From positions 1 to 29,257 of IMG/VR virus record IMGVR_UViG_3300046790_000057: a stretch of DNA of 29,257 nucleotides. One strand, written 5' to 3'. Below the pieces are notes generated by a model. That model was not told where the DNA came from. It saw only the letters and a program-made list of their open reading frames with translations, and did no database searches. Below, piece after piece: positions 4,939-25,663 of this stretch. The stretch comes from a virus. The stretch's first letter is position 1; each line of letters begins with the position of its first letter. Both the position numbers and the translations under genes were made by a program.

Positions 4939-5889
4939 TCACGGGATGGAGCCACCGCGCAAACGCGCCGCCAGGTCTGGACCGGCCCACGCTGCCAGGG
5001 CATCGGCCTTCGCGGGGATGGGGCCGGCTGTAGCGGTGTCGCGGCGTCTGCCTCGTGCGACGGCCAGAGCGTAGGCGAAACCTTTGCCCTTCGCAATGGT
5101 TTCACGCGCCACATCGGCCATCTCGTCGGCCGTGACCCCGGCTTCGATGAGCGCAATGAGGTCGGGATGTGAGGGGTTCATTTCGGCCATTCCGGCGAGC
5201 CGCATTGCGCGGCAAATGAGCCCGGCCGGTGATGGCGTGAAGGCCGGTGTTTCGGTCGGCGTAACGGCGTCGGCGTTACTTGCGCGCGCTTCTCTCTCTC
5301 TTGGCTGTTCTGTATTAGGTATTGTGTTAAGAAATTCCGCGCACGCGAGCCCGTGAGTAACGCTAGGCGTTACGCCGGCTGTTGTTGCGTTACGCGGTGG
5401 CGTTACGTCAAGCAATGCCATCAACTCACCAAATAGGGCATTCTTTCGGGGCGTCAGGCCGCGCGCCATCAATTCAATTCGTATTGGCTCGCATCTTGCT
5501 CTGTAGCGTTTTTGCCTCTCCCTGTTCGCCTCCTTGCCCGTTACGCCGTTTTGGGGGTCTGACGTAACGCCTGACGTAACGCTACCCGGCCTTGACGTAA
5601 CGCCTACGGGGTTGAAGACGGCCTGATGCGGCACCGCAATTGCGCCCCGGTCGAGCAATCCTCGGCCCCCCTCGGTGATGCAAAAGTGAATGCTTAACAC
5701 GCGGTCGAGTTCGCGCTCTTCGTCCCGGGTGCGCACGCCGAGGGCGCGGCGCAGTTCTTCGATGTCAAAGGGCAGCAGCTCGCGCCGGTCGGCCATGTGC
5801 TGCACGAGCAGCATCAACATGCCCAGATGAACGAACCCTTGCCCGCGATGGCGTGAGGCGTATTCCGCTGACAGTGCCGAGGCGCTCAC
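4939..5889 (-). CDS. Putative replication initiation protein (YdaU/DUF1376-like) carrying iteron-like repeats
   Basis: The 316-residue protein has an N-terminal winged-helix-like region (about residues 20-75; HLGMLMLLVQHMADRRELLPFD followed by LRRALGVR) resembling phage replication proteins of the YdaU/DUF1376 kind. The middle is variable and low in conservation. The C-terminal domain (about 235-300; GLICRAMRLAGMAEMNPSHPDL, then GKGFAYALAVARGRR) matches the C-terminus seen on many phage initiators. It probably opens the origin and recruits the helicase loader. The ATG overlaps the previous stop by 4 bp. The coding sequence holds nine CGTTACG/CGTAACG repeats flanking an AT-rich patch, as expected for an origin embedded in the initiator gene. 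Function is by pattern. Confidence 0.6.
   Translation of the reverse strand: MSASALSAEYASRHRGQGFVHLGMLMLLVQHMADRRELLPFDIEELRRALGVRTRDEERELDRVLSIHFCITEGGRGLLDRGAIAVPHQAVFNPVGVTSRPGSVTSGVTSDPQNGVTGKEANRERQKRYRARCEPIRIELMARGLTPRKNALFGELMALLDVTPPRNATTAGVTPSVTHGLACAEFLNTIPNTEQPREREARASNADAVTPTETPAFTPSPAGLICRAMRLAGMAEMNPSHPDLIALIEAGVTADEMADVARETIAKGKGFAYALAVARGRRRDTATAGPIPAKADALAAWAGPDLAARLRGGSIP
5258..5604. repeat. Iteron-like repeats around an AT-rich patch: candidate replication origin
   Basis: There are nine copies of a CGTTACG-type or CGTAACG-type core, starting near 5258, 5355, 5366, 5386, 5399, 5537, 5561, 5573 and 5594. GACGTAACGCC occurs exactly at 5561 and 5594, nearly at 5573, and inverted at 5399. 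A relatively AT-rich stretch (about 5308-5338) lies among them. Every copy encodes Val-Thr as GTT-ACG or GTA-ACG, Val codons that are unexpected in such GC-rich DNA, so selection seems to act on the DNA. Confidence 0.5.
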
Positions 5890-6335
5890 ACCCGCCCCTT
5901 TGCCTTCAACGCCTCAACAGCAAAGCGCTTCGCGCACGGCGAGGCGCTCGCGTTCTTCAACACCCCATACGCCCACGCCACCGGATCACGCGGGCCCGGC
6001 GATGCCTCGCGCATGCCCTTCAAAGCCTCTAGGCTCGATTCGAGGCGCTCGGGTGAGGCATCGGGTGCGGGCAGCGCTGGCGCGTGGCTCTCGGGGCGAT
6101 TCCATGCGAGGCCTCTGAACTGCAGCACGTTCGGCACGAAGTCGGGGGGCAGATGCATCAGCGCGTACTGCACGCCCTCGGCGCTCAGGCCTGCCAACTC
6201 ATGAGCCCAGTGCGCGCGCACCGTGGCGGGGTCCACGTCATAACTGCCCGTGAATCTGCGCCCATACGTGAGCTGCAGCTTTGCCATGATGGCGTTCACC
6301 AGCTCGGGGTTGAGCGGCTCCTGCGTGCGGATCAT
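5886..6335 (-). CDS. Phage replication-associated protein, possibly helicase loader
   Basis: This 149-residue protein is encoded just upstream of the initiator-like gene and overlaps it by 4 bp. The N-terminus (LVNAIMAKLQLTYGRRF, then VRAHWAHELAGLSAEGVQYAL and LPPDFVPNVLQFRGLA) matches a pattern seen in many Burkholderiales and pseudomonad phages next to replication genes, including some annotated as lambda P-like loaders. No Walker motif is present, consistent with a P-type loader rather than a DnaC-type ATPase. The order here (this gene first, then the YdaU-like gene) is the reverse of lambda O-P, so the specific role is uncertain. Confidence 0.5.
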   Translation of the reverse strand: MIRTQEPLNPELVNAIMAKLQLTYGRRFTGSYDVDPATVRAHWAHELAGLSAEGVQYALMHLPPDFVPNVLQFRGLAWNRPESHAPALPAPDASPERLESSLEALKGMREASPGPRDPVAWAYGVLKNASASPCAKRFAVEALKAKGRV

Positions 6336-6360: not shown

Positions 6361-6639
6361 TCAGTCGCGGGCGCTGTTCGTGCTGAGTTCCGGGGGGGCT
6401 GCGAGCAAATCCTGCAGCGTGGCCTCGTCGATGGGCAGCGGCTCGTTGAGCCCGGCCTCGCGGCGCGCGTAGTTGATCCTCACCAATGCGGCGAGCACCG
6501 AATCGACAACGCGCCGGCTCGTGATGTTGCCCTGCTCATCAACCGGCCATTTCTGCGGTGATTGCTTGGTGGTGCCGAGGTGTTCCGCCACGCGGGCCAT
6601 GTTGCCGCCGAGCAGATGAATAGCGATGTGTTTTTTCAT
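6361..6639 (-). CDS. Cro-like helix-turn-helix repressor
   Basis: A 92-residue DNA-binding protein is read leftwards as the first gene of the replication operon. A start at 6639 (MKKHIAIHLLGG) is chosen because GAGGAG lies 8 nt upstream; an in-frame upstream start would run into the operator region. Residues about 5-31 (LLGGNMARVAEHLGTTKQSPQKW) have the Cro/YdaS pattern: small residue, A-x-x-LG turn, then a recognition helix ending in W. The C-terminal part is helical and acidic. It lies 128 bp from the nearer of the two operator palindromes and is a candidate for binding them. Confidence 0.75.
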   Translation of the reverse strand: MKKHIAIHLLGGNMARVAEHLGTTKQSPQKWPVDEQGNITSRRVVDSVLAALVRINYARREAGLNEPLPIDEATLQDLLAAPPELSTNSARD

Positions 6640-6700
6640 GGCCCCGACTCCTCGCAAGGGGGGGCCAATGTCCCCCTCTGTCACGCGCTCGTCAAACTTG

Positions 6701-6720
6701 TGAATCCAGATGAATCCAGA
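6701..6720. repeat. Tandem 10-bp direct repeat upstream of the Cro-like gene
   Basis: TGAATCCAGA is repeated twice without a gap, and a partial third unit (TGAACA) follows. The 10-bp period matches one helical turn, so a protein could bind both on the same face. It lies about 60 bp upstream of the Cro-like start. Confidence 0.45.
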
Positions 6721-6766
6721 TGAACAAATAAGCCTCGCCATACCCGACACGTGCCGCAGTGCATCG

Positions 6767-6801
6767 GACAACCCAGGTTGTCAAAGACAAGCCCGGTTGT
6801 C
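6767..6801. promoter_or_regulatory. Two repressor operators (GACAAC-N4-GTTGTC), early control region
   Basis: GACAACCCAGGTTGTC (6767-6782) is a perfect palindrome. GACAAGCCCGGTTGTC (6786-6801) has one mismatch. Their centres are 19 bp apart, exactly as in the pair at 16325-16359. They sit between divergent early genes, the classical place for phage immunity operators. No convincing -10 element can be paired with the TTGACA on the minus strand at 6779-6784. Confidence 0.7.
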
Positions 6802-6811
6802 TTTTGACCCC

Positions 6812-6826
6812 TTGCGGTATCCGCAA
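6812..6826 (+). repeat. 15-bp palindrome, copy F (early control region)
   Basis: TTGCGGTATCCGCAA is a perfect 6-3-6 inverted repeat 10 bp right of the second operator. It belongs to the same family as the copies at the small-gene junctions and at 16528. Confidence 0.45.
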
Positions 6827-6895
6827 ATGCTCCACAAGGGCATTCACGGGGCTGTAATCCGTTCCCCACGCAGCACCACGCTCGACGCACATCAA

Positions 6896-7267
6896 ATGCA
6901 CCACGTTGACAACCTCATCGACGCAGAGCGCGAACTCGACAGGCGCGAGCGCCGCGACGAGCGAGCCAGTGCGGCATATGCGTTGCTAGAACGTGAGTTC
7001 GAGGACGCGCTCTATGAATGCCCGAGCACCCGCGTTTCGGTGTTCGCAAACGGCGCGGACACGCGCCCCGCTGTCGAGTTCATCGCGGACATCCTCGGCG
7101 CAGAGGATGACTCACACACGCTCAAGCAACTGTTGCGCATTTGCGTGGTGCAGGCGCGCATGGGCGACAGGCTTGCAGAGGCAGTGCTGCGCGGGCTTAT
7201 CGCCCGCTATGCCGAGGCGCAGCTCGCGCGCATCAACGAAGCAGGAGGATTCAACGATGACGAATGA
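6896..7267 (+). CDS. Hypothetical early protein, 123 aa
   Basis: This is the first gene of the rightward operon. An ATG at 6896 (MHHVDNLIDA) is preferred since the in-frame ATG at 6710 would place the operators inside the coding region. There is no clear Shine-Dalgarno sequence before it. The product is mostly helical and charged (ERELDRRERRDERASAA near the start), with possible coiled-coil character and no catalytic motif. A weak promoter candidate (TCCACA at 6831, 16-bp spacer, TGTAAT at 6853) lies about 40 bp upstream. Function is unknown. Confidence 0.6.
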   Translation: MHHVDNLIDAERELDRRERRDERASAAYALLEREFEDALYECPSTRVSVFANGADTRPAVEFIADILGAEDDSHTLKQLLRICVVQARMGDRLAEAVLRGLIARYAEAQLARINEAGGFNDDE

Positions 7268-7451
7268 TCCCGCCGAACTCACGCGCCGCGCCTTCGAGCT
7301 GTGGCCTGAGCACTCGTTTAATCAAGCCGAATGGTTGCGCGCATGGCGCGTGCTGCGCAGCACCGAACGCGGGGCGCTCATCGAGCAACCCGCACACGCG
7401 CCACACACCCCCACACACGAGGAGCCTGCCCATGCGTCGCCCATTCTGTGA
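7257..7451 (+). CDS. Hypothetical small protein, 64 aa
   Basis: The start at 7257 is marked by a strong AGGAGG 8 nt upstream and lies within the last codons of the previous gene. The first 45 residues are ordered-looking (FELWPEHSFNQAEWLRAWRVL); the tail is proline- and histidine-rich and overlaps the next gene by 20 bp. No family recognised. Confidence 0.55.
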   Translation: MTNDPAELTRRAFELWPEHSFNQAEWLRAWRVLRSTERGALIEQPAHAPHTPTHEEPAHASPIL

Positions 7452-7767
7452 AACCCTGCGCGATCTTCGCGCCGGTGCCATCGTCGAGCAGCTCGACGAA
7501 GAGCTGCAACAGCTCGTGCAGCAAGTCATCGCCACCGGCAAGGCCGGCGCGGTCAAGCTCACGGTGTCGGTGAAGCCGATGAAGGGTGCAACCGATGCGC
7601 TCGTGGTTCTCGCCGACATCGAAGCGAAGCGCCCCGCGTTTGATGACGTGGGAACCCTCATGTTCGCCACGCCCGAGGGCAACCTCGCACGCAACAACCT
7701 GGCGCGGCAACCCGAGTTGCCCGGCATCGTGCTCGCGAGCGACAGCACCGGCGAGGCCGCAGCATGA
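7432..7767 (+). CDS. Conserved phage protein upstream of DUF2303, 111 aa
   Basis: The ATG at 7432 has GAGGAG about 7 nt upstream. The pattern (FCETLRDLRAGAIVEQLDEELQ, then TGKAGAVKLTVSVKP, then a C-terminal GNLARNNLARQPELPG) matches a small phage protein that usually precedes the DUF2303 gene in recombination operons. It is predicted to be alpha-helical at the start, then a beta sheet. Its biochemical role is unknown. It overlaps the DUF2303 gene by 4 bp, which suggests coupled translation and possibly a shared complex. Confidence 0.65.
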   Translation: MRRPFCETLRDLRAGAIVEQLDEELQQLVQQVIATGKAGAVKLTVSVKPMKGATDALVVLADIEAKRPAFDDVGTLMFATPEGNLARNNLARQPELPGIVLASDSTGEAAA

Positions 7768-8573
7768 GCCCGATTTATGCGGGCGATGCGCAAGCCATCG
7801 CAGACATTGCCGGCGCCATCGGTGAGGCACACGAGCACTCGGGGCAGGATGGCGCGCCCTATGCGGTGGTGCCCGAGGGATGGAAGCTCGCTTCGTTGCC
7901 CGTGCGGTGGACCCCGCGCCCGAGCCATACGGTGCGGCTGCGCGATGCGGCCTCGTTCACCGGCTACCTCGCCGGGCTCGGGCATGACTCGACGGTGATC
8001 TACGCCACCTTGCAGCCCGCGCGGTTCATCGCGGTGATGCGCGAAAACCATTTGATCGACAACTCCCCCGAGGCGCTCAACTCGTGGCGCGATTGGCGCG
8101 CTGATTTCACGGTGCCGCCTTCGCGTGAATGGAACACGTGGACGGGGGCGAATTGCAGGCCGATGGGGCAAGTTGATTTCGCGCAGTTCCTGCAGGCCAA
8201 TCTCCCCGACATCACGCAACCCGATGGGGCCGATTTGCTGGCGCTGGTGCTCAACTTCGAGGCGAGCACCTCGGGCGCGTTCGTCGCCGCGCAGCGGCTG
8301 CATGACGGGAGCGCCACCCTCAACTGGCGCAGTGACACGAGCACCGGCGCGGTGAAGGTTCCCGAGCACATCGGCCTTGCAATTCCGGTGTTTGAAAACG
8401 AGGCGCCGCGTGAGCTGCTCGCGCGCTTGCGCTATCGCATCAAAGATGGCGCGTTGTCCCTATGGTACGAACTCGTGCGCCCGCACAAGGTGCAGGAGGT
8501 CGCGTTTCGCGAGGTATGGGACCGCATCGAAAAGGACACGGGCCGCGCCGTGCTCCTCGGCACCCCGGAGTAA
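7764..8573 (+). CDS. DUF2303 (YfdQ-like) protein
   Basis: This 269-residue protein shows the DUF2303 layout: an N-terminal helix, VPEGWKLASL (about 36-45), a central W-x-x-W segment with MGQVDFAQFLQANLPDI, and a C-terminal half with VPEHIGLAIPVFENE and ARLRYRIKDGALSLWYEL. The family is found in phages and defective prophages (E. coli YfdQ), commonly beside recombination genes as here. The molecular role is not established. It lies 3 bp before the next gene and is part of the operon leading into exonuclease and Bet. Length is typical of the family. Confidence 0.85.
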   Translation: MSPIYAGDAQAIADIAGAIGEAHEHSGQDGAPYAVVPEGWKLASLPVRWTPRPSHTVRLRDAASFTGYLAGLGHDSTVIYATLQPARFIAVMRENHLIDNSPEALNSWRDWRADFTVPPSREWNTWTGANCRPMGQVDFAQFLQANLPDITQPDGADLLALVLNFEASTSGAFVAAQRLHDGSATLNWRSDTSTGAVKVPEHIGLAIPVFENEAPRELLARLRYRIKDGALSLWYELVRPHKVQEVAFREVWDRIEKDTGRAVLLGTPE

Positions 8574-8576
8574 GCC

Positions 8577-9008
8577 ATGAGCCGGCCGCGAATTGACTTG
8601 AGCGAATGGGCGCTTTTGTCCCTTGATGCTGTCGATGTGTGGTGGGGGGAGAAGTTGCGCGCGGTGGTCGGTGAGGTGCTTTACATCATCGCTAATAGCA
8701 TCGAGAGCGACAGCGGCGAACCGGACCCGATGTTTGCATTCGAGGTGCTCGAATGGACCGCGCGCCGGGGGCTGCCGCCTCTTTCGGTGGTGCTGCTCGC
8801 AGACAGAATCGAGGGGCTCGGCACGCTCGAACTTGCTCGCGTCAATGTCGCTCATTTGCTGCGCGAGAGATTCGAGCGCTATCAGGAGCCGGGATATGCG
8901 GGTGCTGATGATGCGCCTGCGTTCCGAGGCATTGCGACTGAACTGCGTGCGCTTGCTGATGTGGCCGATGAAACGGCCCGCCTGCTTGTGGCATTTGAGG
9001 CCGAATGA
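8577..9008 (+). CDS. Hypothetical protein, 143 aa
   Basis: The protein is placed between DUF2303 and the exonuclease, overlapping the latter by 4 bp. It is largely helical, with a W-rich N-terminus (SEWALLSLDAVDVWWGEKL) and a C-terminal helix (TELRALADVADETARLLVAF). No motif is recognised. Context suggests a recombination or replication accessory, but this is inference only. Confidence 0.6.
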   Translation: MSRPRIDLSEWALLSLDAVDVWWGEKLRAVVGEVLYIIANSIESDSGEPDPMFAFEVLEWTARRGLPPLSVVLLADRIEGLGTLELARVNVAHLLRERFERYQEPGYAGADDAPAFRGIATELRALADVADETARLLVAFEAE

Positions 9009-9880
9009 TGCAAGCCCCCCGCATCGAGTACGGGCTCGATTCCGACGCCTACCGCGCCGCCGAGGGGTTGTCTCACTCCGAATCGAAAACGCTGCGCCGC
9101 AGCCCGTTCCATTTCAAGCGCTTGAGCGAGCCGCGCCCGCCTGAGCTGGTGAAGGCACCGAGCCCGCAGATGTTCGTCGGCACGCTGGCGCACTGCGCAT
9201 TGCTTGAGCCGCTCGAATTTGACAAGCGCTATGTGGTGTTGCCGCCGCTCAACAAAAACAGCACCGCATACAAGGAGCTTGCTGCGGCCTGCATCGCATC
9301 CGGTGGTGAGCCCATCACGCAACTGCAGCGCGACATCGCATTCGCTCAGGCCGCCAGTGTGCGCGAGCTGCCCGAGGTCGCGGGCTTGCTCGATGGCTGC
9401 GCCTGCGAGGTTTCGGCGTGGTGGCAGTGCCCTCGCACTGGCGTGCTCTGCAAAGCCCGGCCTGATTTGGTCAAGCGCTTTCCTCCTGGCGCGCTGCCCG
9501 AGTACCCGCAAGGGTTCGCGGTGCTCGCCGATTTGAAAACCACCGAGGACGCGAGCGAGGAGGCGTTTCGCCGCAGCGTTGCAGAGTTCTCCTACTTCAC
9601 GCAGGCAGACCACTACAGCGAAGGCTATGCCCTCGCCGCAGGCGTGCCGGTGGCTGCTTTCATGTTCGTTGTCGTCGAGCGCGAGTTTCCGTATGCGTGT
9701 GCCGCGTACACGCTCGACGAGCAAGCAATGGCGGTTGCCCGTGACATCAACGATGCGGCGCGCTCGACGTTCGCGCGTTGCACCGCGCTCGGCCAGTGGC
9801 CGGGCTATCCGCGCGAGTCGCGCGAAATCAGCTTGCCGAGCTGGTATCTAAAACGCTACCTTGAAGGGGCCCTTGTATGA
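9005..9880 (+). CDS. PDDEXK exonuclease (RecE/lambda-exo-like, DUF3799 type)
   Basis: This is a 5'-3' double-strand exonuclease of the recombination module, expected to make 3' overhangs for the annealing protein next to it. The motifs fit: GTLAH (59-63), ACEVSAWW around E135, CKARPDLV with D154, LADLKTT with D176 and K178, and QADHYSEGY (200-208), the Q-x3-Y type motif of RecB-like nucleases. At 291 residues it has the size of the phage DUF3799 group. The ATG overlaps the preceding stop, and its own stop overlaps the Bet start by 4 bp, so the two are translated as a pair. Confidence 0.85.
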   Translation: MMQAPRIEYGLDSDAYRAAEGLSHSESKTLRRSPFHFKRLSEPRPPELVKAPSPQMFVGTLAHCALLEPLEFDKRYVVLPPLNKNSTAYKELAAACIASGGEPITQLQRDIAFAQAASVRELPEVAGLLDGCACEVSAWWQCPRTGVLCKARPDLVKRFPPGALPEYPQGFAVLADLKTTEDASEEAFRRSVAEFSYFTQADHYSEGYALAAGVPVAAFMFVVVEREFPYACAAYTLDEQAMAVARDINDAARSTFARCTALGQWPGYPRESREISLPSWYLKRYLEGALV

Positions 9881-10707
9881 ATGAAATAACCGCGCCCGCC
9901 TCGGGCACCTCGCTCGTTGCCCGCCTCGCGGGGCAATGGGGCGTCGAGCCCGAGAAGCTCACGAACACGCTCAAGAGCACGGCATTCAAGACCGACAAGC
10001 CAATCAGCAATGAGCAGCTCATGGCGCTGTTGATCGTGGCCGAGCAGTACCACCTCAACCCGTTCACGAAGGAACTGTTCGCCTTCGCGGATCAACGCGG
10101 GGGCATCGTGCCCTTCGTGTCGGTCGATGGGTGGTCGCGCATCGTCAATGAGCATCCGCAATATGACGGGTCCACGTTCATTTTCGATCAGGCCGAAGGT
10201 TCGATGACGTGCGTCATGTACCGCAAGGACCGCGCGCACCCGACTCAAATCACCGAGTATTTGCAGGAGTGCAAGCGCAACACCGCGCCCTGGACATCGC
10301 ACCCGCGCCGCATGCTGCGCCATAAGGCGCTGATTCAATGCGCGCGCATCGCGTTCGGGTTCGCGGGGCTGTATGACGAGGACGAGGCCGAGCGCATCCG
10401 CGATGCAAAAATGGTCGAGCGCGTTGATACGCCACCGAAGGAACGAACCCGGCTGCAGGCATTCATCGCCGACAGCTCGAAACACTTCGCGCACCCGGCC
10501 GATGTAATCGAGCCCGATGCCGCCACCCCGGCGCCACCGGCGAGCGAGCTGCAGGAAATGCTCGGGCAACTCTACAAAGAAACCACCACCCGCGCCGAGG
10601 CCGAGCAGTTGCTCGACTATGGCAGGAGCGCGTTATCGGACGCCGATTACGCCGAGTTGTCTGCGGTGTTCGCAGATATTTTCAACCCCGAGGAGAGCAA
10701 GCAATGA
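9877..10707 (+). CDS. bet: Single-strand annealing recombinase, Bet family
   Basis: This protein anneals complementary single strands exposed by the partner exonuclease, driving recombination and possibly end repair of phage DNA. The 276-residue protein follows the Bet plan: an N-terminal FKTDKPISNEQLMALLIVAEQYHLNPFTKELFAF region, the central PFVSVDGWSRIVNEHPQYDG segment, and the characteristic PWTSHPRRMLRHKALIQCARIAFGF helix at about residues 138-162. A variable acidic C-terminus follows, as in the family. It forms an operon with the exonuclease and DUF2303. Confidence 0.92.
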   Translation: MNEITAPASGTSLVARLAGQWGVEPEKLTNTLKSTAFKTDKPISNEQLMALLIVAEQYHLNPFTKELFAFADQRGGIVPFVSVDGWSRIVNEHPQYDGSTFIFDQAEGSMTCVMYRKDRAHPTQITEYLQECKRNTAPWTSHPRRMLRHKALIQCARIAFGFAGLYDEDEAERIRDAKMVERVDTPPKERTRLQAFIADSSKHFAHPADVIEPDAATPAPPASELQEMLGQLYKETTTRAEAEQLLDYGRSALSDADYAELSAVFADIFNPEESKQ

Positions 10708-10934
10708 AAACGCGCGTGTATGTCGTTGGCATCAACGGCGAGCAAGGGCAACGCCTCGTGCGTGCCACATATTCACACATGGCCGAGCGCCATGTCATCA
10801 GCGCCCTCGTGTCGTCGCGCGTGGCCTCGAAGGATGATCTAGTGGAGCTGATGGGCCACGGGGTGCGGGTTGAGGATGCCGGCGACGAGCTGCTCGCACC
10901 CGAAACCGCACGGGATGACGTGTTTGCGCGGTAG
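10704..10934 (+). CDS. Hypothetical protein, 76 aa
   Basis: The start overlaps the Bet stop (ATGA). The N-terminus MKTRVYVVGINGEQGQRLVRA looks like a strand-turn-helix; no glycine-rich nucleotide motif is complete. Probably a small recombination-operon accessory. The gene is followed by a 272-bp non-coding gap. Confidence 0.55.
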   Translation: MKTRVYVVGINGEQGQRLVRATYSHMAERHVISALVSSRVASKDDLVELMGHGVRVEDAGDELLAPETARDDVFAR

Positions 10935-11206
10935 TGGGCGCTCTCATTTGTAGGGGCTTGTACCACGCAACGAATGGCACTTGTTTCGCGCTGCCATAAA
11001 TGCTAGGCGCTGTAACCCCCCTATGGAAAGGGTTTCACATCCTTGTGCGTTGCACCATGTGAGACGTTCACAAGATTCGTGTTAAATCCCGGTGCAATGT
11101 AAGGGTTTTTGTTGAATGATCGGCTCGAAAATCTTGCAATGCGCCACCGCCTGCCACCGGCACGGCCGGGGCGCCACCCATTAACAGAGCGTGAGGAGAG
11201 GGAAAC
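10935..11206. other. Intergenic leader before the 551-aa gene
   Basis: This 272-bp gap has no gene I can support. It holds an imperfect inverted pair CTTGTG (11042) and CACAAG (11069) and several A/T-rich spots (CATAAATG, TTAAAT), but no promoter with both elements in good spacing. It separates the recombination operon from the 551-aa gene, so a separate promoter here is likely. GAGGAGAGGGAAAC just before 11207 is a good ribosome site. Confidence 0.35.
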
Positions 11207-12862
11207 ATGAGCGAAACCCCGGCCTATATGCGGTGGACCCCCGACAGGGAATGGCTCATCGTCGGCGCGATTGCCGCCGAGCACCTGGCGCGAGGGAAAT
11301 CTAGATTCGAGGCGCTCAAGCGGGCGCAAATGGCGCTGCCCAAACACCGGCGCCGCTCGCTGGCCGAGCTGCACAAGCTCGCCGCGTCCGCGCAGAAATC
11401 CCTGAATAACGCCATCGCTCGCGCAAAGGCCATGCCCCCCGAGCAGCTCGCGCAACTGATGCCGGCTGTGCCGCCTCAAGCCCCGCCGAAAATCCAATCG
11501 AAGCCCCCCGCCGAAAAAGAGCCCCGGCACCTCATCAAATGGAGCAGTGAGCAGCTCGCGCTCATGGCGCGGCGCATTGACCATATCGAAGTCACCCGCA
11601 AAGATGAGCGCTTGAGCCTCGTGCGCCTCTTTCTCGAAGCGCAGACCATCGAACTCACCCCGGAATATCGCCGCAGCAATATGGCGGTGCATCATCTGGC
11701 GCGGCGTAGGCTGCCTGAGTTTTTGGATGAGGGGCGCAAATACGCGCCCCTTATCGTCGATGTTCCGTTTGTTCCCGGTGCCCGCACGTATGCCGAGGCG
11801 CACCCCCAGAGCCCCGGGCTCGTCGAGCCCCCGGCCCCCACTGTCGAGGCGCTGCGCGAGGGGTTGATTCGGTGGAACGATTTAGAGCTTGCGCAGATGG
11901 TGCGCCGCATTGATGAACTGCAGAGCGAGCCGATGCACGCGGGCCGCGCGCTTTCTTCGCTCTTCATTAAGGCTCAGGCTATCGAACTGCCACCCGAGCG
12001 CCGCCGGCCCCATGCGTCGCTGTATGTCAACGGCTCGAAGTTCCTGCCCCTTTACATACAGCGCGGCCGCGCGGCCGCTCACCTCGTCGAGCACATCCCA
12101 TTCGTTCCCCGCGCCGTCACCTATGCGCAGGCGTACCCGAAAGCGCAGCCCATCCCGCCGGCCCCGCAGGAGCCCGCGCAGGCCATCGCAGCACCTGCCC
12201 CCACACCCGCGCCAGAAAAAACGATCCTGCAGCCCGCCGATGCCCTTGCCGCAGCCCCCGCAGCACCCGCGAGCAGCGCCAGTGATCCGCACCAGATGGC
12301 AACGTGGGCGGGAATCAGCCTCGCGAACGCGCTGGTGCCCATCATCGAAACCCTGCTCGTCGCGGGTCAAAACGCCGTCATCGAACGGGTGCGCGCGCAG
12401 GCCATCGAGGAGCACAAACAACTTGCTGCGGATATGTCGCGGCTCATGCTCGAAGGGCTCGACAGGATGCTCGGCGGGCAGGGCATCGCCCACATGCCGG
12501 CGCCGGTTCCCGAGGAGCCCATCGCCCCGCCGGCCGCCGCCCCCGAGTCACCGCCGCGCGTGCGGGTTAAGTTTGACGTTATCGGGTTCATCGAAGGCAA
12601 ACACGAAATGCTTGTGCAGCACGGTTTGAACGGCCATTCGCAGGAGGTCGATTTGCGGTTTGTGAGCCCGAGAGCGCACAGCACCTATTCCCCGCAGCGG
12701 GACCGCATCGCGATCCTGCTCACGAGCCGCATCCCCCATGCACTGCAAGACAAGGTAAAGGCGAGCGGCTGCGAATACGTGTTTGCGAAACGCACGGTGA
12801 GCGACGTTCTCACCGCGATTAACACGGTACTCAAAGAGCGCGCTATTCACGCCGCACACTGA
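11207..12862 (+). CDS. Large protein with three W-x(n)-RRR repeats and a C-terminal Rossmann-like domain, unknown
   Basis: This 551-residue protein has a striking modular build. Three related units begin with an RW/KW-(S/T/N) motif: about residues 8-65, 109-203 and 220-314. The last two also share PFVPxAxTYAxAxP at their ends, so they arose by duplication. The leading W with charged helices resembles Myb/SANT-type DNA-binding repeats, but only weakly. A proline/alanine linker (about 315-360) and a helical region (365-425) follow. The C-terminal part (450-551) has a VKFDVIGF strand and later DRIAILLTSRIPHAL, loosely like DUF2325-type Rossmann domains. Function is unknown; a DNA-bound regulator or structural protein is possible. 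A good SD (GAGGAG) supports the start. Confidence 0.7.
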   Translation: MSETPAYMRWTPDREWLIVGAIAAEHLARGKSRFEALKRAQMALPKHRRRSLAELHKLAASAQKSLNNAIARAKAMPPEQLAQLMPAVPPQAPPKIQSKPPAEKEPRHLIKWSSEQLALMARRIDHIEVTRKDERLSLVRLFLEAQTIELTPEYRRSNMAVHHLARRRLPEFLDEGRKYAPLIVDVPFVPGARTYAEAHPQSPGLVEPPAPTVEALREGLIRWNDLELAQMVRRIDELQSEPMHAGRALSSLFIKAQAIELPPERRRPHASLYVNGSKFLPLYIQRGRAAAHLVEHIPFVPRAVTYAQAYPKAQPIPPAPQEPAQAIAAPAPTPAPEKTILQPADALAAAPAAPASSASDPHQMATWAGISLANALVPIIETLLVAGQNAVIERVRAQAIEEHKQLAADMSRLMLEGLDRMLGGQGIAHMPAPVPEEPIAPPAAAPESPPRVRVKFDVIGFIEGKHEMLVQHGLNGHSQEVDLRFVSPRAHSTYSPQRDRIAILLTSRIPHALQDKVKASGCEYVFAKRTVSDVLTAINTVLKERAIHAAH

Positions 12863-13203
12863 TGGAACCCGCCGCAGAGCCGCGCGGCAAGCAAAGCGCG
12901 CATCGCGCTTTGCCCAAACGGATGACAAAAAGAATGGCACACCACGCGCGCAAAGCACACGGGCCGCCGGCCGAGCTGCTGGAATGGCTGCGCGATCAGT
13001 ACGAGATGGGCGTTCGCGTGCTGCCTGATGGCAGCGTCGCGGCGCTGTTGCCACTGCTCACAACAACGAGCGTGATCCTCGGCCTTGAGCGGTGGGGTTA
13101 TGCACGGCGTTTCTGTTTCGCCGAAGAGTCCCGAGCGCGTGAAGTGTTCGAGGCTCTGCAAAGCGAGGATGACGAGCCCTCGGGCTTCGTCGCTCGCCGC
13201 TGA
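12862..13203 (+). CDS. Hypothetical protein, 113 aa
   Basis: The ATG overlaps the stop of the 551-aa gene by one base. The basic N-terminus (PKRMTKRMAHHARKAHG) precedes a compact domain with EWLRDQYEMGVRVLPDGSVAALLPLL and FCFAEESRAREVFEAL. No family recognised. Tight coupling suggests it works with the 551-aa protein. Confidence 0.5.
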   Translation: MEPAAEPRGKQSAHRALPKRMTKRMAHHARKAHGPPAELLEWLRDQYEMGVRVLPDGSVAALLPLLTTTSVILGLERWGYARRFCFAEESRAREVFEALQSEDDEPSGFVARR

Positions 13204-13280
13204 GAGAAAAGACATGGGCAGCCACAGCAGTACAGAAGGGAGGCGCCACATGCCAAGGGTTTAACTTCCATAGGGAACGC

Positions 13281-13562
13281 ATGGCCACCGCTATAGACAA
13301 GAAGAAACGCAAGCGCACCCGCCGCGCGTTCGATGCTTCTAAACTCACCCCCGAATCGCTCGTCACGATGCAAGACATTGCCGAGCATTCGCGTTACGCG
13401 CGGGGGTATCTGTACAACCTGCACAGCAGGCACCGGCACGGCGAGGCTGATGCGTTCGTTGATCCCGTCGTCGATACCGCGCGCGCCGTGCGGTTCCGGT
13501 GGGGTGATGTGCTTGCATGGCTCGACAAACACGGGAACCCGGGCGCACCGAAGAAAGGCTAG
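13281..13562 (+). CDS. Excisionase/AlpA-like winged-helix DNA-binding protein
   Basis: This 93-residue basic protein has a KKKRKRTRR tail followed by a MerR/Xis-type fold pattern: SLVTMQDIAEHSRYARGYLYNLHSRH (helix-turn-helix, about residues 26-52), then a wing with VRFRWGDVLAWLDKHG (about 69-84). Such proteins direct the integrase toward excision or activate its gene. It is encoded about 1.2 kb from the integrase stop on the opposite strand. A general transcription-factor role is equally possible. A stretch of 77 bp with no confident gene separates it from its upstream neighbour. Confidence 0.65.
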   Translation: MATAIDKKKRKRTRRAFDASKLTPESLVTMQDIAEHSRYARGYLYNLHSRHRHGEADAFVDPVVDTARAVRFRWGDVLAWLDKHGNPGAPKKG

Positions 13563-13565
13563 ACC

Positions 13566-14045
13566 ATGAGCGAAGAAACGAAGCCCGAGGGCACAGAGTT
13601 CGGCAAGCAATGCGACGAGGTGGCCGAGCGTGCGGCGAAGGAATTAGGTTGTGCCGTGGTGCTCATCGCGCTGCAGACTGAGGAGCAAGGGGGCAAGGTT
13701 TGCGCATCTCATGGGGGGCTCGCCGGCTCGGCGCATCCGCTCGCCGCAGTTGTCGATAGCCCGGCGCGATTGCTCGGTGCGCTCGCCATGTCGGCCGCAA
13801 TGGGTGAGGCGCTTTTGCCCACGCCCGGCAAGCCGCTCACGGTGCAATATGCGCCGGGGTTCGCCGACAACCTCAACTTGCCACCCGGGGAGCTTGCGGA
13901 TTTGAAAAATTACATCGAGCGCGCGGTTGCGTCCGGTGAGATTTTCGAGCAGGCCATACCCTTGAGCGCCGAAGAGGCCGAAGAGCTGGAAGGCTTCGAG
14001 GAGGAGCATTTGCGCGCACGGGGCAGCAGCTCGACGCCGCAGTAA
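13566..14045 (+). CDS. Hypothetical protein, 159 aa
   Basis: This is the last gene of the rightward operon, starting 3 bp after the excisionase-like gene. It has an N-terminal helical part (QCDEVAERAAKELGCAVVLIAL) and a strongly acidic C-terminus (PLSAEEAEELEGFEEEHL). No family recognised. It converges with the methyltransferase gene, with only four bases between the two stops and no terminator hairpin. Confidence 0.55.
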   Translation: MSEETKPEGTEFGKQCDEVAERAAKELGCAVVLIALQTEEQGGKVCASHGGLAGSAHPLAAVVDSPARLLGALAMSAAMGEALLPTPGKPLTVQYAPGFADNLNLPPGELADLKNYIERAVASGEIFEQAIPLSAEEAEELEGFEEEHLRARGSSSTPQ

Positions 14046-14049
14046 GCGC

Positions 14050-14697
14050 CTAGCGCCGCAGCACCACCACCGCCGGCACCGTCGAGCGCAGCACTGCCTC
14101 GGGCACCGCCCCCGCCACGTGCGGGGGCGCGGTCAACCCCTCGCGGATCACTTCGAGCTGCAGCCCGTTCGAGCTTGCGAAGGCGAGCACATCGGCGAGC
14201 CTCGGGCTCGTGTAGCAGAGTGCCGCATCAAACTCGGGCGACGAATCGAACACATCCGCGAGCAGGAGCACCCCGCCGGGGGCGAGGTTCGCGAGCGCGC
14301 TGCCGAGCGTGCGCAGCGGGTCAACGTGCCCGAGCATGTATGCACAGAGCACAACCTCGTGCATTCGGCCGCTCCTGTATGTCTCGGCATCGGCAACCAC
14401 CCGCCGGCCTTCGCATAGGCACACGTCGAGCTGCGGCGCGGCGAGGTTCACAAGCTCGAAGAAGAGGTCAGGCCGCGCGAGCTGCCAAAGGCGCTCAAGC
14501 CCGCCCACGCCGCAGCCGAGGCTCAACACCGAGGCGCCGCGCCCGGGTCGCACGAGGTCGAGCATGCGCAGCGCATGCGCGCGCTCGTCGCCGAACTGGA
14601 AGAGCTGAAAAATCGTGTGCCCTTGCGCGAGGTGCCACGCGGTGCCGCCGCGCAGGGTAGCCTCATCGCGATACATGGGGTGCTCGGCGAAGCGCAT
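14050..14697 (-). CDS. Class I SAM-dependent methyltransferase
   Basis: The 215-residue protein has methyltransferase motif I VLSLGCGVGGLERL (about 54-67), an acidic or hydrophobic motif around NLAAPQLDVC, motif IV-like VVLCAYMLGHVDP, and the LAPGGVLLLADVF strand typical of small-molecule or protein methyltransferases. No DNA methylase motif (N/D-PP-Y/F/W) is visible. The start MRFAEHP at 14697 is chosen over longer frames because it lies after the integrase terminator; its ribosome site is weak. It sits between integrase and a convergent operon as an accessory gene, and its substrate cannot be predicted. Confidence 0.7.
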   Translation of the reverse strand: MRFAEHPMYRDEATLRGGTAWHLAQGHTIFQLFQFGDERAHALRMLDLVRPGRGASVLSLGCGVGGLERLWQLARPDLFFELVNLAAPQLDVCLCEGRRVVADAETYRSGRMHEVVLCAYMLGHVDPLRTLGSALANLAPGGVLLLADVFDSSPEFDAALCYTSPRLADVLAFASSNGLQLEVIREGLTAPPHVAGAVPEAVLRSTVPAVVVLRR

Positions 14698-14717
14698 GGG
14701 GGGATGGTGCCAGAATG

Positions 14718-14741
14718 AAAAAGGGCCCCGTGGGGCCCCTT
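14718..14741 (-). terminator. Rho-independent terminator after the integrase
   Basis: On the minus strand a GC-only stem (GGGCCCC/GGGGCCC, 2-nt loop, extended by A-T pairs) is followed by TTTTT. It lies 18 bp after the integrase stop and just before the methyltransferase start. Confidence 0.8.
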
Positions 14742-14758
14742 CTCTTCGCTGCGGCGAC

Positions 14759-16189
14759 TCATGCCGCGATGGCGAGCAGCGCGGGCCGCTCGTGTGGCAT
14801 GGGTTGCTCCTGCAGCCCGTCATCGGCGCCGAGCTGCTCGTCGATCCAATCGGCCCAAACCTGCATCACCTTCGGCAGATTCTCGGCGTGGTCGATGCGG
14901 TCATAAACCCCGGGCATTCCGCCGTCCATCATGTTCGCAAGCTCCCGCATCATGTCGAGCCCGCGAATCGCGGCGCAGTGCGCGATGACAGCCTCGCAAT
15001 GCAGCGGGTTGCAGCCGAGCGTGGGGGCGATGGTGCGGAACATCGAGCGGAACCCGTGCCCGCTTTGCTGGCCGGGGAACCACCGGCGGATGAGCCCGCT
15101 CATCGAGGTTTTGCCCATCGCGCGGCCGGTGGCCTTGCTTTGCCCGGGGAACACATAGGCGCTATGCGGGTGCGCGGCGAACTGCTCACGCACGAGCTGC
15201 ACCGCCTGACGCGACAGATACACGATGTGCGGCTTCGTTTCGGGGTCGTCCTTGAGCGCCTTCTTTTGCTTCATCTTCACCGGCGGAATCGTCCACGTTG
15301 CCGCGTCGAGGTCGAACTCCTCTTTGCGGGCTTGCGCGATGTTCACGGTGCGCTGCGCTGTGAGCGCCATCAACTTTAGGCCTTGCTTCAACGTCGCATT
15401 GCCCTCGGGGCCCCAAATCTGCAGCAGCACCTCGCGGGCGCCGGTGGCCTTCGTCTGCGCTGCGCGCGGCTTGCTCTTGAGGCCATCCCACAAGCGGGAA
15501 TCGCGAAACACCGGATGCGGGGTGGTGCGTGCCTTCACCTCGGGGAGCGCCGCATACTCGAACACTTGCCGAACCCATCCGCGCGCCTTGATGCACGTTT
15601 GCCGCGTAGCCTTGAGCGCTTTGTCGAGCGCGGCGATGTCGGAATCCGTCACCGCTTCGATGTGCTTGTCACCGAACAAGGGGAATGCATGGCGCTTGAG
15701 CGCTTTCTCGACGTTGCGGATGTGGTCTGCGCCCCATCGGTTGCGGCTCGCGTCGAGCCACCGCAGCGTGAGGTCTGCGAAGGAATCCTTCGCGGGCAGG
15801 CCGCGCGCCTTGCGCTCGCGGTTGTCCTTGTCTTGCGCCACCTTTGCGGCGTGCTCGTCCTGAGCGGTGCGCTCCTTCGCGTCGCGCGCCTGCACCGGGT
15901 CGCTGCCGGCCTGCACCATTTCGCGAGCCTTGACGTGCTCAGAGCGCGCCTCGGCTGCCGTCATGCCCCGAGCGGTTTTGCCGTCTGTGTCGAGCCAGCA
16001 CCCGCCGAGGGTGATTTTCGAGCGCTTGCCCGTCACCGGAGACTTGAACTCATACCGCCACGAGCCGGCCCGTTTCGGGGCGCCGGTGGTGAGCAAGAAG
16101 AGCCCCCCGCCGTCTGTAGCGTGCTGCGGCTTGTCGGCCTTGAGCAGAGCGGGCAGAGCCGTGGGGTTGATCGCGTGCCGTTTCGTCAT
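14759..16189 (-). CDS. int: Tyrosine integrase (P4 type, N-terminal DUF4102)
   Basis: The 476-residue site-specific recombinase catalyses integration and excision. The N-terminus (DGGGLFLLTTGAPKRAGSWRYEFKS and TLGG) is the arm-binding DUF4102 domain of P4-like integrases. The core-binding domain is at about 135-230. Catalytic residues are in place: R280 (LTAQRTVNI), a lysine at about 307-310 (KMKQKK), HGFR at 378-381, H404 and the nucleophile Y429 (GVYDR). A short insertion (about residues 408-424) separates H404 and Y429 more than usual. AGGA 7 nt before the ATG supports the start. The upstream 360 bp holds three repressor operators. Confidence 0.95.
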   Translation of the reverse strand: MTKRHAINPTALPALLKADKPQHATDGGGLFLLTTGAPKRAGSWRYEFKSPVTGKRSKITLGGCWLDTDGKTARGMTAAEARSEHVKAREMVQAGSDPVQARDAKERTAQDEHAAKVAQDKDNRERKARGLPAKDSFADLTLRWLDASRNRWGADHIRNVEKALKRHAFPLFGDKHIEAVTDSDIAALDKALKATRQTCIKARGWVRQVFEYAALPEVKARTTPHPVFRDSRLWDGLKSKPRAAQTKATGAREVLLQIWGPEGNATLKQGLKLMALTAQRTVNIAQARKEEFDLDAATWTIPPVKMKQKKALKDDPETKPHIVYLSRQAVQLVREQFAAHPHSAYVFPGQSKATGRAMGKTSMSGLIRRWFPGQQSGHGFRSMFRTIAPTLGCNPLHCEAVIAHCAAIRGLDMMRELANMMDGGMPGVYDRIDHAENLPKVMQVWADWIDEQLGADDGLQEQPMPHERPALLAIAA

Positions 16190-16280
16190 GATGTTTTCCT
16201 AAGTTGTGGACCAATGGTGCGTGGTGGTTTTTCGGGTGTAAATGGCCTGTGAGCCCATGTGAAACCGAATCGCCTGTAAC

Positions 16281-16296
16281 GACAACCTGCGTTGTC
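16281..16296. promoter_or_regulatory. Operator GACAAC-N4-GTTGTC, third cluster member
   Basis: GACAACCTGCGTTGTC is a perfect palindrome in its six-base arms. It lies 91 bp before the integrase start and 28 bp from the pair at 16325. Confidence 0.7.
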
Positions 16297-16324
16297 TTTT
16301 CCCTTACGCATCAACTACTTAGGG

Positions 16325-16359
16325 GACAACCTGAGTTGTCTGCGACAACCCCCGTTGTC
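16325..16359. promoter_or_regulatory. Pair of operators (GACAAC-N4-GTTGTC) upstream of integrase
   Basis: GACAACCTGAGTTGTC (16325-16340) and GACAACCCCCGTTGTC (16344-16359) have perfect six-base arms. The 3-bp gap gives 19-bp centre spacing, identical to the early-region pair. Confidence 0.75.
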
Positions 16360-16517
16360 CCATCGCGAGTCGTAAACTGACTCCCGATGGGGCCCCTAAG
16401 TGATTGAATCATAACAGTTTTACGCCACGCGCTCGGCGCCGTGGATGTAAATCCGGTTGTATCCCCGGAATGCGTGCAGGGTTTAACGCCATGCGGGATT
16501 GTCGGACATTCGGGCGC

Positions 16518-16546
16518 TTGCGGGCACTTGCGGATTCCGCTACATT
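16518..16546 (+). promoter_or_regulatory. Candidate promoter for the HTH operon
   Basis: TTGCGG (16518) and TACATT (16541) have a 17-bp spacer. The expected start of transcription falls at or next to the A of the ATG at 16553, predicting a leaderless or nearly leaderless mRNA. Confidence 0.45.
16528..16542 (+). repeat. 15-bp near-palindrome, copy G (over the promoter spacer)
   Basis: TTGCGGATTCCGCTA overlaps the spacer and the first bases of the -10 candidate, so a bound protein would block the promoter. Confidence 0.45.
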
Positions 16547-16552
16547 TGAGGC

Positions 16553-16777
16553 ATGGAAAACACCACCAAGCACACCACCACCGGCGCCGCCGCGCAGCAC
16601 ACGCCGGGCCATGTGATTCCACCCGGCTACGAAGTTGTGCGGGCCTACACCATGCGGAACGGGCGCGACGTGCCGGACGGATGGGATGTGCTGTTCCACG
16701 GCGAATGGGGCAACCGCTACCGCACCAAGCGTGGCGCCGTGGAAGCCATCGCTAAGGCCACCGGGAGCGCGGAATGA
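16553..16777 (+). CDS. Hypothetical small protein, 74 aa
   Basis: The ATG at 16553 has no properly spaced Shine-Dalgarno (GAGGC touches the ATG), in line with a leaderless message. Its sequence (GYEVVRAYTMRNGRDVPDGWDVLFHGEWGNRYRTKRGA) suggests a small beta-rich domain with a basic end, the type of short protein found beside phage regulators. It overlaps the HTH gene by 4 bp. Confidence 0.55.
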   Translation: MENTTKHTTTGAAAQHTPGHVIPPGYEVVRAYTMRNGRDVPDGWDVLFHGEWGNRYRTKRGAVEAIAKATGSAE

Positions 16778-16995
16778 GCACCAAACCCCTCACCCGACAA
16801 CCCACCGGCGCCGAAGTCGCGAAGGCGCGCAAAAAGGCCGGGCTCACGCAGGCGCAGGCCGCCGAGCTGGTCTACCTCGGCGACGCCGTGCGGTGGTCCA
16901 ACTATGAGCGCGAGGTGAACGGCATGCCGCTCGCCACGTGGGAACTTTTCTTATTCAAAACCGGGCAGCGCAAGCTCGCCATCGTCGAGGAGTGA
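16774..16995 (+). CDS. Xre/Cro-type helix-turn-helix protein, candidate immunity repressor
   Basis: This is a 73-residue protein with an N-terminal extension and then EVAKARKKAGLTQAQAAELVYLGDAVRWSNYERE (about residues 13-46), a clear Xre-type pattern: helix 1, the LTQAQAAELV helix-turn, and a recognition helix with WSNYERE. A short C-terminus (WELFLFKTGQRKLAIVEE) completes the five-helix fold. There is no peptidase or dimerisation domain as in lambda CI. Its operon lies beside three of the five shared operators, so it is a reasonable candidate for the repressor, though the Cro-like protein at 6361 could also bind them. Confidence 0.75.
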   Translation: MSTKPLTRQPTGAEVAKARKKAGLTQAQAAELVYLGDAVRWSNYEREVNGMPLATWELFLFKTGQRKLAIVEE

Positions 16996-16999
16996 TGAC

Positions 17000-17164
17000 A
17001 TGCTGATCTTCATTTTCTGGGTGTTCATTGCGCTCGTGGCGTTCATCATCTTCGAGGCCGCCCTCAACTGCGGGGGCGGTGACGAGCGGTTGCAACAGGC
17101 GTTGCGCGAGTCGGACGAGCGTTTGAGAGCCGAGCGCGCGAAGATCGGGCCCCGCTACCCTTAG
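17000..17164 (+). CDS. Small one-span membrane protein, 54 aa
   Basis: The gene starts 4 bp after the HTH gene with GAGGAG 8 nt before the ATG. The first 21 residues or so (MLIFIFWVFIALVAFIIFEAA) form a membrane helix. The rest is a charged helix (ERLQQALRESDERLRAERAK), probably cytoplasmic. The gene ends directly before a strong terminator. Possible roles include superinfection exclusion or regulation at the membrane; the sequence alone does not decide. Confidence 0.6.
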   Translation: MLIFIFWVFIALVAFIIFEAALNCGGGDERLQQALRESDERLRAERAKIGPRYP

Positions 17165-17183
17165 CCCCGCCCGCACAAAGCAA

Positions 17184-17208
17184 AGCCCGCCACCCGGCGG
17201 GCTTTTTT
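17184..17208 (+). terminator. Rho-independent terminator at the end of the HTH operon
   Basis: An 8-bp stem AGCCCGCC/GGCGGGCT (4-nt loop) is followed by TTTTTT. On the minus strand it also ends in TTTG, so it may help stop late transcripts from the right. Confidence 0.85.
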
Positions 17209-24602: not shown

Positions 24603-24935
24603 TTAGCGTTCAAACTGGCGGCCGGAACCCTTGCGGATCATGTCAATCGCCATCCGTTGTCGTGCGCGCGGGTCTGCGCCCAGCGCGAGATTTCCGTCCA
24701 TCTGCGGTGGTGCGCCGCCCGATTTCATGATCCGCGAAGGGCTCCGGCCTTGAGGCATCCCGGGGGGTAGCGGGCCGCTCTTGCCGCCGCCGGGCATCGG
24801 TGGCACAGCTCCGCTTTTTCGGCTGCCGCTGCCACCATCGCCACCGGAACCACCACCCGGCAAGCCGGGCAGGCCGAGGGGCCCCCCGTGTGAGCCGGGC
24901 AACAGATGCTTAGTGGGAATCGATTTCTTGCTCAT
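24603..24935 (-). CDS. Gly/Pro-rich protein, 110 aa
   Basis: The ATG at 24935 overlaps the stop of the PAPS-reductase-like gene (ATGA). A longer frame that begins upstream would run through that gene and is rejected. Residues 14-63 or so are collagen-like runs of G, P and S (GLPGLPGGGSGGDGG); the C-terminus is basic (RARQRMAIDMIRKGSGRQFER). Probably a small disordered virion or assembly protein. Confidence 0.5.
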   Translation of the reverse strand: MSKKSIPTKHLLPGSHGGPLGLPGLPGGGSGGDGGSGSRKSGAVPPMPGGGKSGPLPPGMPQGRSPSRIMKSGGAPPQMDGNLALGADPRARQRMAIDMIRKGSGRQFER

Positions 24936-25663
24936 GATTCGCGCTCCAATTCGGCGAGGTGCGAGCGCATCGCGCCACGCAAGTAATCCAGCACGGGCCG
25001 CACCTCTTCCCACACCTCGGGGTGATGTTCGCGAAGGTCTGCCATGCGTCCCGGGTTGTGGTGCGTGTAGGCGGTGCAGTTGATGCAGTCGAGGCTCGAC
25101 ACGAGGCCGCGTTTGTATGACGCGGGCAGCTCGTCGCCGAGGTACGCGATGACATCCGCATCCGTCCATTCGTGCAGCGGAAAATGAAACTCGCGCCCAT
25201 CGAAGATGGCCCCGGGTTCGAGCCGCGAGCGCAGTGCGTCGCTGCGCTTCTCGCCCCTCACAACACCCGTTGCGCCGGTGGCCTTCGTCGCCGCGTGCAA
25301 TGGGCTCCACAAGTTCGAGCCGCAGCAGTGCTCAATCGAGGTGAGCAGCGGGGCGGCCTTGCGCGTTGCGACTCGGCCGTGCAGCGTGGCCTCGAACGGC
25401 ACAACATCGGCGGGGTGCCCGTGCGTGTAGATAAATGCCGGCTGCCGGCCCACCACCGCCTGAAAACGCGGCACGCTGCGCGCAACATCGGCCATGTACT
25501 GCACCGTTTCCGGGTAGGGGCTGCCGGGGTTCACCCATAGAACGATGACTTGCTCGATGTACGGGCGCAGCAACTTCAAACACGCGGCCGAATCCTTGCC
25601 CGCGCTGAATTGCAGCGCCACGGTGTCGTGGCGTTGCATGTAGGCTTTGAGTGTGTCGGCCAT
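24932..25663 (-). CDS. PAPS-reductase/PP-loop ATPase-like protein in the virion operon
   Basis: The 243-residue protein has the PP-loop SAGKDSAA at residues 20-27 and a following strand VIVLWVNPGSPYPET, as in PAPS reductases and related PP-loop enzymes such as DndC. Four cysteines in two pairs (C113-C114 and C193/C196 in LDCINC) could bind a metal cluster. RGEKRSDALRSRL (137-149) resembles the conserved arginine-rich substrate segment. In phages, genes of this family appear in virion operons without sulfur-assimilation partners; the substrate is unknown. It overlaps its upstream neighbour by 1 bp and its downstream one by 4 bp. Confidence 0.8.
   Translation of the reverse strand: MADTLKAYMQRHDTVALQFSAGKDSAACLKLLRPYIEQVIVLWVNPGSPYPETVQYMADVARSVPRFQAVVGRQPAFIYTHGHPADVVPFEATLHGRVATRKAAPLLTSIEHCCGSNLWSPLHAATKATGATGVVRGEKRSDALRSRLEPGAIFDGREFHFPLHEWTDADVIAYLGDELPASYKRGLVSSLDCINCTAYTHHNPGRMADLREHHPEVWEEVRPVLDYLRGAMRSHLAELERES

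Follow-up and report, generated by a model that had tools for sequence, protein, structure and literature searches.

Two short intergenic regions of a temperate-type phage, one within the early region and the other beside the integrase gene, carry the same 16-base palindrome, which raises the question of whether a single small regulator acts at both loci and, if so, which of the proteins encoded nearby is the one that reads these sites. The whole stretch of DNA that was analysed (hereafter the window) is a virus fragment of 29,257 bases. The tail-side proteins of the window have matches in phage structural families, among them phrog_5107, phrog_6121 and one of acyltransferases, and relatives in Mx8 and the Stenotrophomonas phage BUCT555. 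No genes for the terminase large subunit, portal or capsid were seen in the 29,257-base fragment, and comparison with BUCT555 suggests that about 10 kb are absent from the record. A gene resembling phosphoadenosine phosphosulfate reductase (24935-25663) is located amid the structural genes.

Palindromic Sites in Two Intergenic Clusters

Scanning of the window has identified five copies of the palindrome GACAAC-N4-GTTGTC, four of them exact (6767, 16281, 16325 and 16344) and one with a single mismatch (6786), and all of the coordinates and sequences given for these sites in the initial annotation are right. The sites form two clusters, A and B, which are about 9.5 kb apart:

6767-6782, no strand: operator A1, GACAACCCAGGTTGTC, exact match
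6786-6801, no strand: operator A2, GACAAGCCCGGTTGTC, one mismatch; its dyad extends to AAAGACAA-N6-TTGTCTTT
16281-16296, no strand: operator B1, GACAACCTGCGTTGTC, exact match
16325-16340, no strand: operator B2, GACAACCTGAGTTGTC, exact match
16344-16359, no strand: operator B3, GACAACCCCCGTTGTC, exact match, 19 bp from B2 and abutting a core-like repeat

The start-to-start spacing is 19 bp in each of the two close pairs, as was originally noted, and 44 bp between 16281 and 16325. The five sites with at most one mismatch compare with an expectation of 0.03 and were not reached in any of 100 dinucleotide shuffles, and the earlier statement that the window holds no further copy is correct at this threshold, the count applying to the 29,257-base virus fragment, within which any copies elsewhere in the genome were judged. 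The mismatch-tolerant scan that had been suggested yields only background beyond the five sites; allowing up to three mismatches raises the count in the window to 12 vs. 8.9 expected, and the additional weak matches are hence regarded as noise. A symmetric position weight matrix scores the five sites at 22-27 bits, and the best match outside them, a site with two mismatches within a coding region (7706), at 12.4 bits. Some exact dyad with 6-base arms and at least four copies is found in 3 of 40 whole-window shuffles, a comparison subject to the caveat of post hoc choice, and the copy number alone is therefore not decisive. What is decisive is the confinement of the sites to two short intergenic gaps and the repeated 19-bp spacing, which post hoc choice leaves unexplained. 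The operator form and placement of the five sites are supported.

An exact scan of viral contigs for the paired operators produced no match, and a loose paired-site pattern was found at only three places in 84,980 species genomes, all of them unrelated bacterial loci. The matches obtained with loosened pair scans (viz. Bacteroidetes-like phage contigs, a 418-kb contig and the three bacterial loci) were rejected as relatives. Three of these Bacteroidetes-like phage contigs (L013 1781-1868, L014 13115-13203 and L015 12773-12861) contain four tandem ACAAC-N4-GTTGT palindromes directly upstream of a conserved 82-aa gene, and they represent an independent case of this operator form. A literature search for the GACAAC-N4-GTTGTC motif returned nothing relevant.

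Cluster A and the Early Control Region

The genes that surround cluster A are as follows:

4939-6335, minus strand: O-like (DUF1376-type) and P-like replication genes, downstream of the Cro-like gene, with homologues in L023
6361-6639, minus strand: Cro/YdaS-like protein of 92 aa, first gene of the leftward early operon and favoured reader of the sites
6896-14045, plus strand: rightward early operon, with a first ORF of 6710/6827/6896-7267
9005-9880, plus strand: ExoVIII, in the rightward early operon
9877-10707, plus strand: RecT, in the rightward early operon
13281-13562, plus strand: xis-like protein of 93 aa, near the end of the rightward early operon

The leftward operon runs from the Cro-like gene (6361-6639) through the P-like, O-like (DUF1376-type) and RusA genes to a small-terminase-like gene. 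Cluster A is located 128 bp upstream of the Cro-like gene, in a gap of 256 bp that separates the two divergent early operons when 6896 is taken as the start of the first rightward gene, and its original placement at the early control region is thus borne out. An in-frame ATG at 6710 would place the sites within the first rightward ORF, and no clear ribosome-binding site is present at any of its possible starts (6710, 6827 or 6896). A scan for sigma-70 promoters revealed no consensus-level promoter at cluster A or cluster B. The leader of the Cro-like gene also contains a perfect tandem repeat, TGAATCCAGA in two copies (6701-6720).

Searches of viral contigs, phages and plasmids by DNA, integrase, 73-aa protein or 92-aa protein identified no close relatives. 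A syntenic relative, L023, found through RecT, contains homologues of the O-like, P-like, Q-like, small-terminase-like, exonuclease, 551-aa and integrase proteins (alignment Z 16-91). In L023 a gene for a 135-aa non-S24 CI-like HTH_3 protein (7885-8292) lies divergent to the Cro-like gene, and its product matches HTH_3 (E 3.7e-5, above the cut-off), Phage_CI_repr and the phrog_2328 repressor. The corresponding position in the window, 6640-6895, which is that of cI in the syntenic L023, holds no gene, and no S24/LexA-type repressor (PF00717) is encoded in the whole window, in agreement with the earlier remark that a LexA-type CI is missing. Hence, the early switch is one without a local cI. The same gap also lacks a cI in two annotated phages found via the P-like protein (L026 and L027), where a Cro/YdaS-like gene heads that operon. 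A cI is likewise missing from the space between the divergent operons of a RecT-related contig (L022 7898-11005), which carries a repressor-like HTH gene (10451-11005) beyond int. The proposal that the immunity region is split is thus reasonable, the cI position being empty and an S24 repressor absent, although the layout is not unique to this phage, since it recurs in L022, L026 and L027.

Over 55 aa the 92-aa protein is 42% identical (E 2e-11) to the Cro-like protein of L023, which itself has weak matches to P22_Cro and phrog_409, and this homology supports the Cro-like designation of the 6361 product. Taken alone, the helix-turn-helix assignment of the 92-aa protein is weakly supported: its match to YdaS (PF15943) has an E value of 0.054, a PDB sequence search gave no match, and a single-sequence model (pLDDT 59) was too poor for a fold search. 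The five sites share a geometry that we take to be that of the 434 operators, ACAA-N6-TTGT (half-site ACAA and spacing), and the proposed recognition helix of the 92-aa protein, LGTTKQSPQKW, presumably resembles those of 434 CI (GTTQQSIEQL) and 434 Cro (GVKQQSIQLI), a likeness that is unscored. The helix of the Cro-like protein of L023 reads LGCSVSAVHKW vs. LGTTKQSPQKW in the window, and no GACAAC site with up to one mismatch is found in L023.

Cluster B and the Integrase Region

Cluster B is located in a gap of 363 bp between int, on the minus strand, and an operon on the plus strand whose three genes have 74, 73 and 54 codons, and it is interleaved there with several other repeated elements:

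14759-16189, minus strand: tyrosine integrase with an arm-binding N-terminal domain (PF22022, PF13356, PF00589; phrog_1, 1e-35)
16198-16210, plus strand: arm-like element, CCTAAGTTGTGGA
16311-16323, minus strand: arm-like element, CCTAAGTAGTTGA
16359-16391, no strand: core-like inverted repeat whose 13-nt arms have one mismatch and flank a 7-nt spacer, a putative attP crossover or a plain hairpin
16395-16407, plus strand: arm-like element, CCTAAGTGATTGA

The 13-bp sequence CCTAAGTNRTKGA is present in three copies in the window, all of them upstream of int, where 0.10 are expected with one mismatch allowed. An inverted repeat of the core-like kind with a 7-nt spacer occurred in 2 of 2000 regional shuffles, and the 16359-16391 repeat scored as an RNA hairpin has a z of -6.07. 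In the usual attP of a tyrosine integrase, arm-type sites flank a core whose overlap is 7 bp. Because the arm-like sites and the 7-nt-spacer core correspond to this arrangement, cluster B probably lies in attP, near the int promoter. Searches of viral contigs, phages and plasmids with the core sequence revealed neither an attB nor a shared core. Should crossover take place at the core-like repeat, cluster B would be parted from the operon encoding the 73-aa protein upon integration. The original assignment of cluster B to an integrase/HTH locus thus stands as regards its position beside int, but the cluster has the appearance of an int promoter/attP region and is not clearly the promoter of the HTH operon.

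The 73-aa Protein and its Operon

The small plus-strand operon consists of the following features:

16553-16777, plus strand: 74-aa protein without a family match, overlapped by the next gene at ATGA; an accessory or acr-type candidate by position only
16774-16995, plus strand: Aca10-like helix-turn-helix protein of 73 aa, the alternative reader of the sites
17000-17164, plus strand: 54-aa protein with a hydrophobic N-terminus, third gene of the operon
17182-17205, plus strand: intrinsic-terminator-like hairpin that ends the operon

The best PDB sequence match of the 73-aa protein is Aca10 (7xi5, E 7e-6), and Aca10 is also the top Foldseek match of its predicted structure (pLDDT 83.7; TMt 0.91, 40% identity, E 3.9e-3). 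In sequence and predicted fold this protein is therefore Aca10-like, closest to Aca10 rather than to a CI; it is a small HTH protein, as had been recognized, but the generic label Xre-like does not suit it. Its only relatives detected in viral contigs, phages and plasmids are the distant proteins of L005-L010, and in two of these (L006 and L007) a small ORF directly precedes the Aca10-like gene. Aca10 itself represses an anti-CRISPR operon as a dimer and binds a palindrome of 19-21 bp (PMC9410881), and proteins of the Aca class act as repressors of their own operons by way of inverted repeats that lie no more than 150 bp ahead of the first gene (PMC9410906).

The small operon beside int (16553-17164) resembles an acr-aca operon, with the 74-aa protein as a positional anti-CRISPR candidate; the latter gave only chance-level matches in Pfam, PHROGs, NCBIfam and PADLOC, libraries with few acr genes. 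Just upstream of its gene, at 16518-16546, a weak promoter-like sequence (TTGCGG-N17-TACATT) has the 11-bp palindrome GCGGATTCCGC between its hexamers, and this palindrome is possibly a separate Aca-type operator for the small operon.

Proposed Mechanism and Alternative Explanations

As the same 16-base site is present both at the early control point and beside int, one small phage protein probably controls both loci. More specifically, the palindromes may be operators of a phage-encoded, dimeric, single-domain HTH protein, with the 92-aa Cro-like protein as the favoured reader and the 73-aa protein perhaps sharing the sites, a reading to which we would give an even chance. The 92-aa protein is favoured on account of the 434-type geometry of the sites, the likeness of its helix to those of 434 CI and Cro, its homology to the Cro-like protein of L023, and the position of its gene. 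The 73-aa protein is a less certain reader because it is Aca10-like, within an acr-aca-like operon, and because cluster B looks like an int promoter/attP region. We infer that occupancy of cluster A would repress early transcription in both directions, whereas occupancy of cluster B would repress int and/or shape or block the attachment complex. The 92-aa protein would thereby autoregulate its own gene at cluster A and control int/att at cluster B, with the 73-aa protein as a possible lysogeny-side partner at these sites. The existence of a separate xis-like gene (13281-13562) speaks against this favoured reading. Also counting against it are the weak stand-alone HTH assignment of the 92-aa protein, the palindromic form of the sites where known RDF-type dual regulators use direct repeats, the lack of a consensus sigma-70 promoter at either cluster, and an attP reading for which the searches gave no attB or attL/R evidence. 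Looping between the clusters had been suggested; the distance of 9.5 kb is far longer than that between OR and OL of lambda, and nothing in the data requires it.

The principal alternative makes the 73-aa protein a displaced immunity repressor, which would replace CI, autoregulate from cluster B and act from cluster A to repress the early operons; it might read the sites alone or, in the manner of CI and Cro, together with the Cro-like protein. Apart from the Cro-like and xis-like proteins, it is the only small HTH protein predicted with confidence, the place where L023 has a CI-like gene is vacant in the window, which also encodes no S24 repressor, L022 similarly combines a gap lacking cI with a repressor-like HTH beyond int, and Aca proteins are dimeric autorepressors that act on inverted repeats (PMC9410881, PMC9410906). 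Several observations are, however, at variance with it. Cluster B ends 194 bp upstream of the start of the 74-aa gene, vs. at most 150 bp for predicted Aca sites (PMC9410906), and, should crossover take place at the core-like repeat, it would be split from the 73-aa operon upon integration; the operator measured for Aca10, ATACGCTCATTGAGCGTAT, differs from the GACAAC-N4-GTTGTC sites; no GACAAC dyad lies within 10 kb in L005, whose protein is 48% identical and shares part of the helix; and GCGGATTCCGC, between the weak -35/-10-like hexamers (16518-16546), could be the operator that the 73-aa protein uses. We regard this alternative as possible but doubtful, and its fullest form, in which an Aca10-type regulator turned immunity repressor autoregulates an accessory operon, controls int/attP and silences cI-less early operons, as unlikely. 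If true, the latter would couple the control of lysogeny to that of an anti-CRISPR-like operon, and the phage offers a specific case in which a role of Aca-type proteins as lysogeny regulators can be examined.

CI-less phages that use the LexA of their host are known, and as this phage lacks a LexA-type CI, a host regulator (LexA or another dimeric repressor) could have been co-opted at both loci. The loose paired-site pattern, however, occurs at just three unrelated places in the species genomes, and we know of no SOS box of the form GACAAC-N4-GTTGTC, making this explanation quite improbable. That the palindromes function in RNA, as hairpins or as terminators/attenuators, appears highly improbable: each of them folds into a short stem (-6.7 to -10.1 kcal/mol) and TTTT follows the 6786 and 16281 copies on the plus strand, but the other three copies have no T-run, the stems are weak, and the spacing of the pairs and their placement between divergent genes are better suited to DNA sites.

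The reading with the 92-aa Cro-like protein as principal regulator is a variation on familiar phage operator logic, neat though rather commonplace as a form of control; if it is right, an early switch without a local cI keeps Cro-like control, and 434-type operators also mark the integration locus. In the interpretation first offered for this locus, the operator form and placement of the sites, the role of cluster A, the missing LexA-type CI and the Cro-like protein at 6361 are retained, while the Xre label and the assignment of cluster B require revision. What makes the case more testable is the assignment to Aca10, together with the vacant cI position and the attP-like surroundings.

Comparison with Known Systems

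The arrangement shares features with several known systems. As in the CI-Cro switches of lambda, 434 and P22, a Cro-like gene is the first of an operon with O-like and P-like genes, tandem palindromes lie between divergent early operons, and the ACAA-N6-TTGT half-site geometry is like that of 434. Unlike in these lambdoid switches, the space between the operons lacks a cI, an S24 repressor is absent, cluster A has two sites instead of three, and additional sites are present at int. The recurrence of one operator type at distant loci of a genome is presumably shared with the dispersed-operator immunity systems of P1 C1, N15 and the L5 stoperators, which we take to differ from the present case, where there are two loci, five sites and small candidate reader proteins. 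The likeness to Aca10 comprises the sequence and fold of the 73-aa protein, a small upstream gene and a possibly autoregulated small operon, but the sequence and spacing of the operators differ, no known acr gene was recognized with the libraries used, cluster B is further upstream, and the same sites occur at the early switch.

In P2-like phages the early HTH regulator is also the RDF, and the same sites are found at the early switch and att; the known dual regulators of this RDF type bind direct repeats 10-11 bp apart (PMC7498355). As with 186 Apl and P2 Cox, a single small HTH protein from the first early gene is proposed here to act at the early switch and at int/att via similar sites; the sites are present at both loci, with attP deduced from repeats only. 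In contrast to Apl, which uses direct repeats and cooperative monomers, the sites here are 16-bp palindromes spaced 19 and 44 bp apart, and a separate xis-like gene is present. Because its sites are palindromes and not direct repeats, this phage would work like 186 Apl and P2 Cox without being a member of their group.
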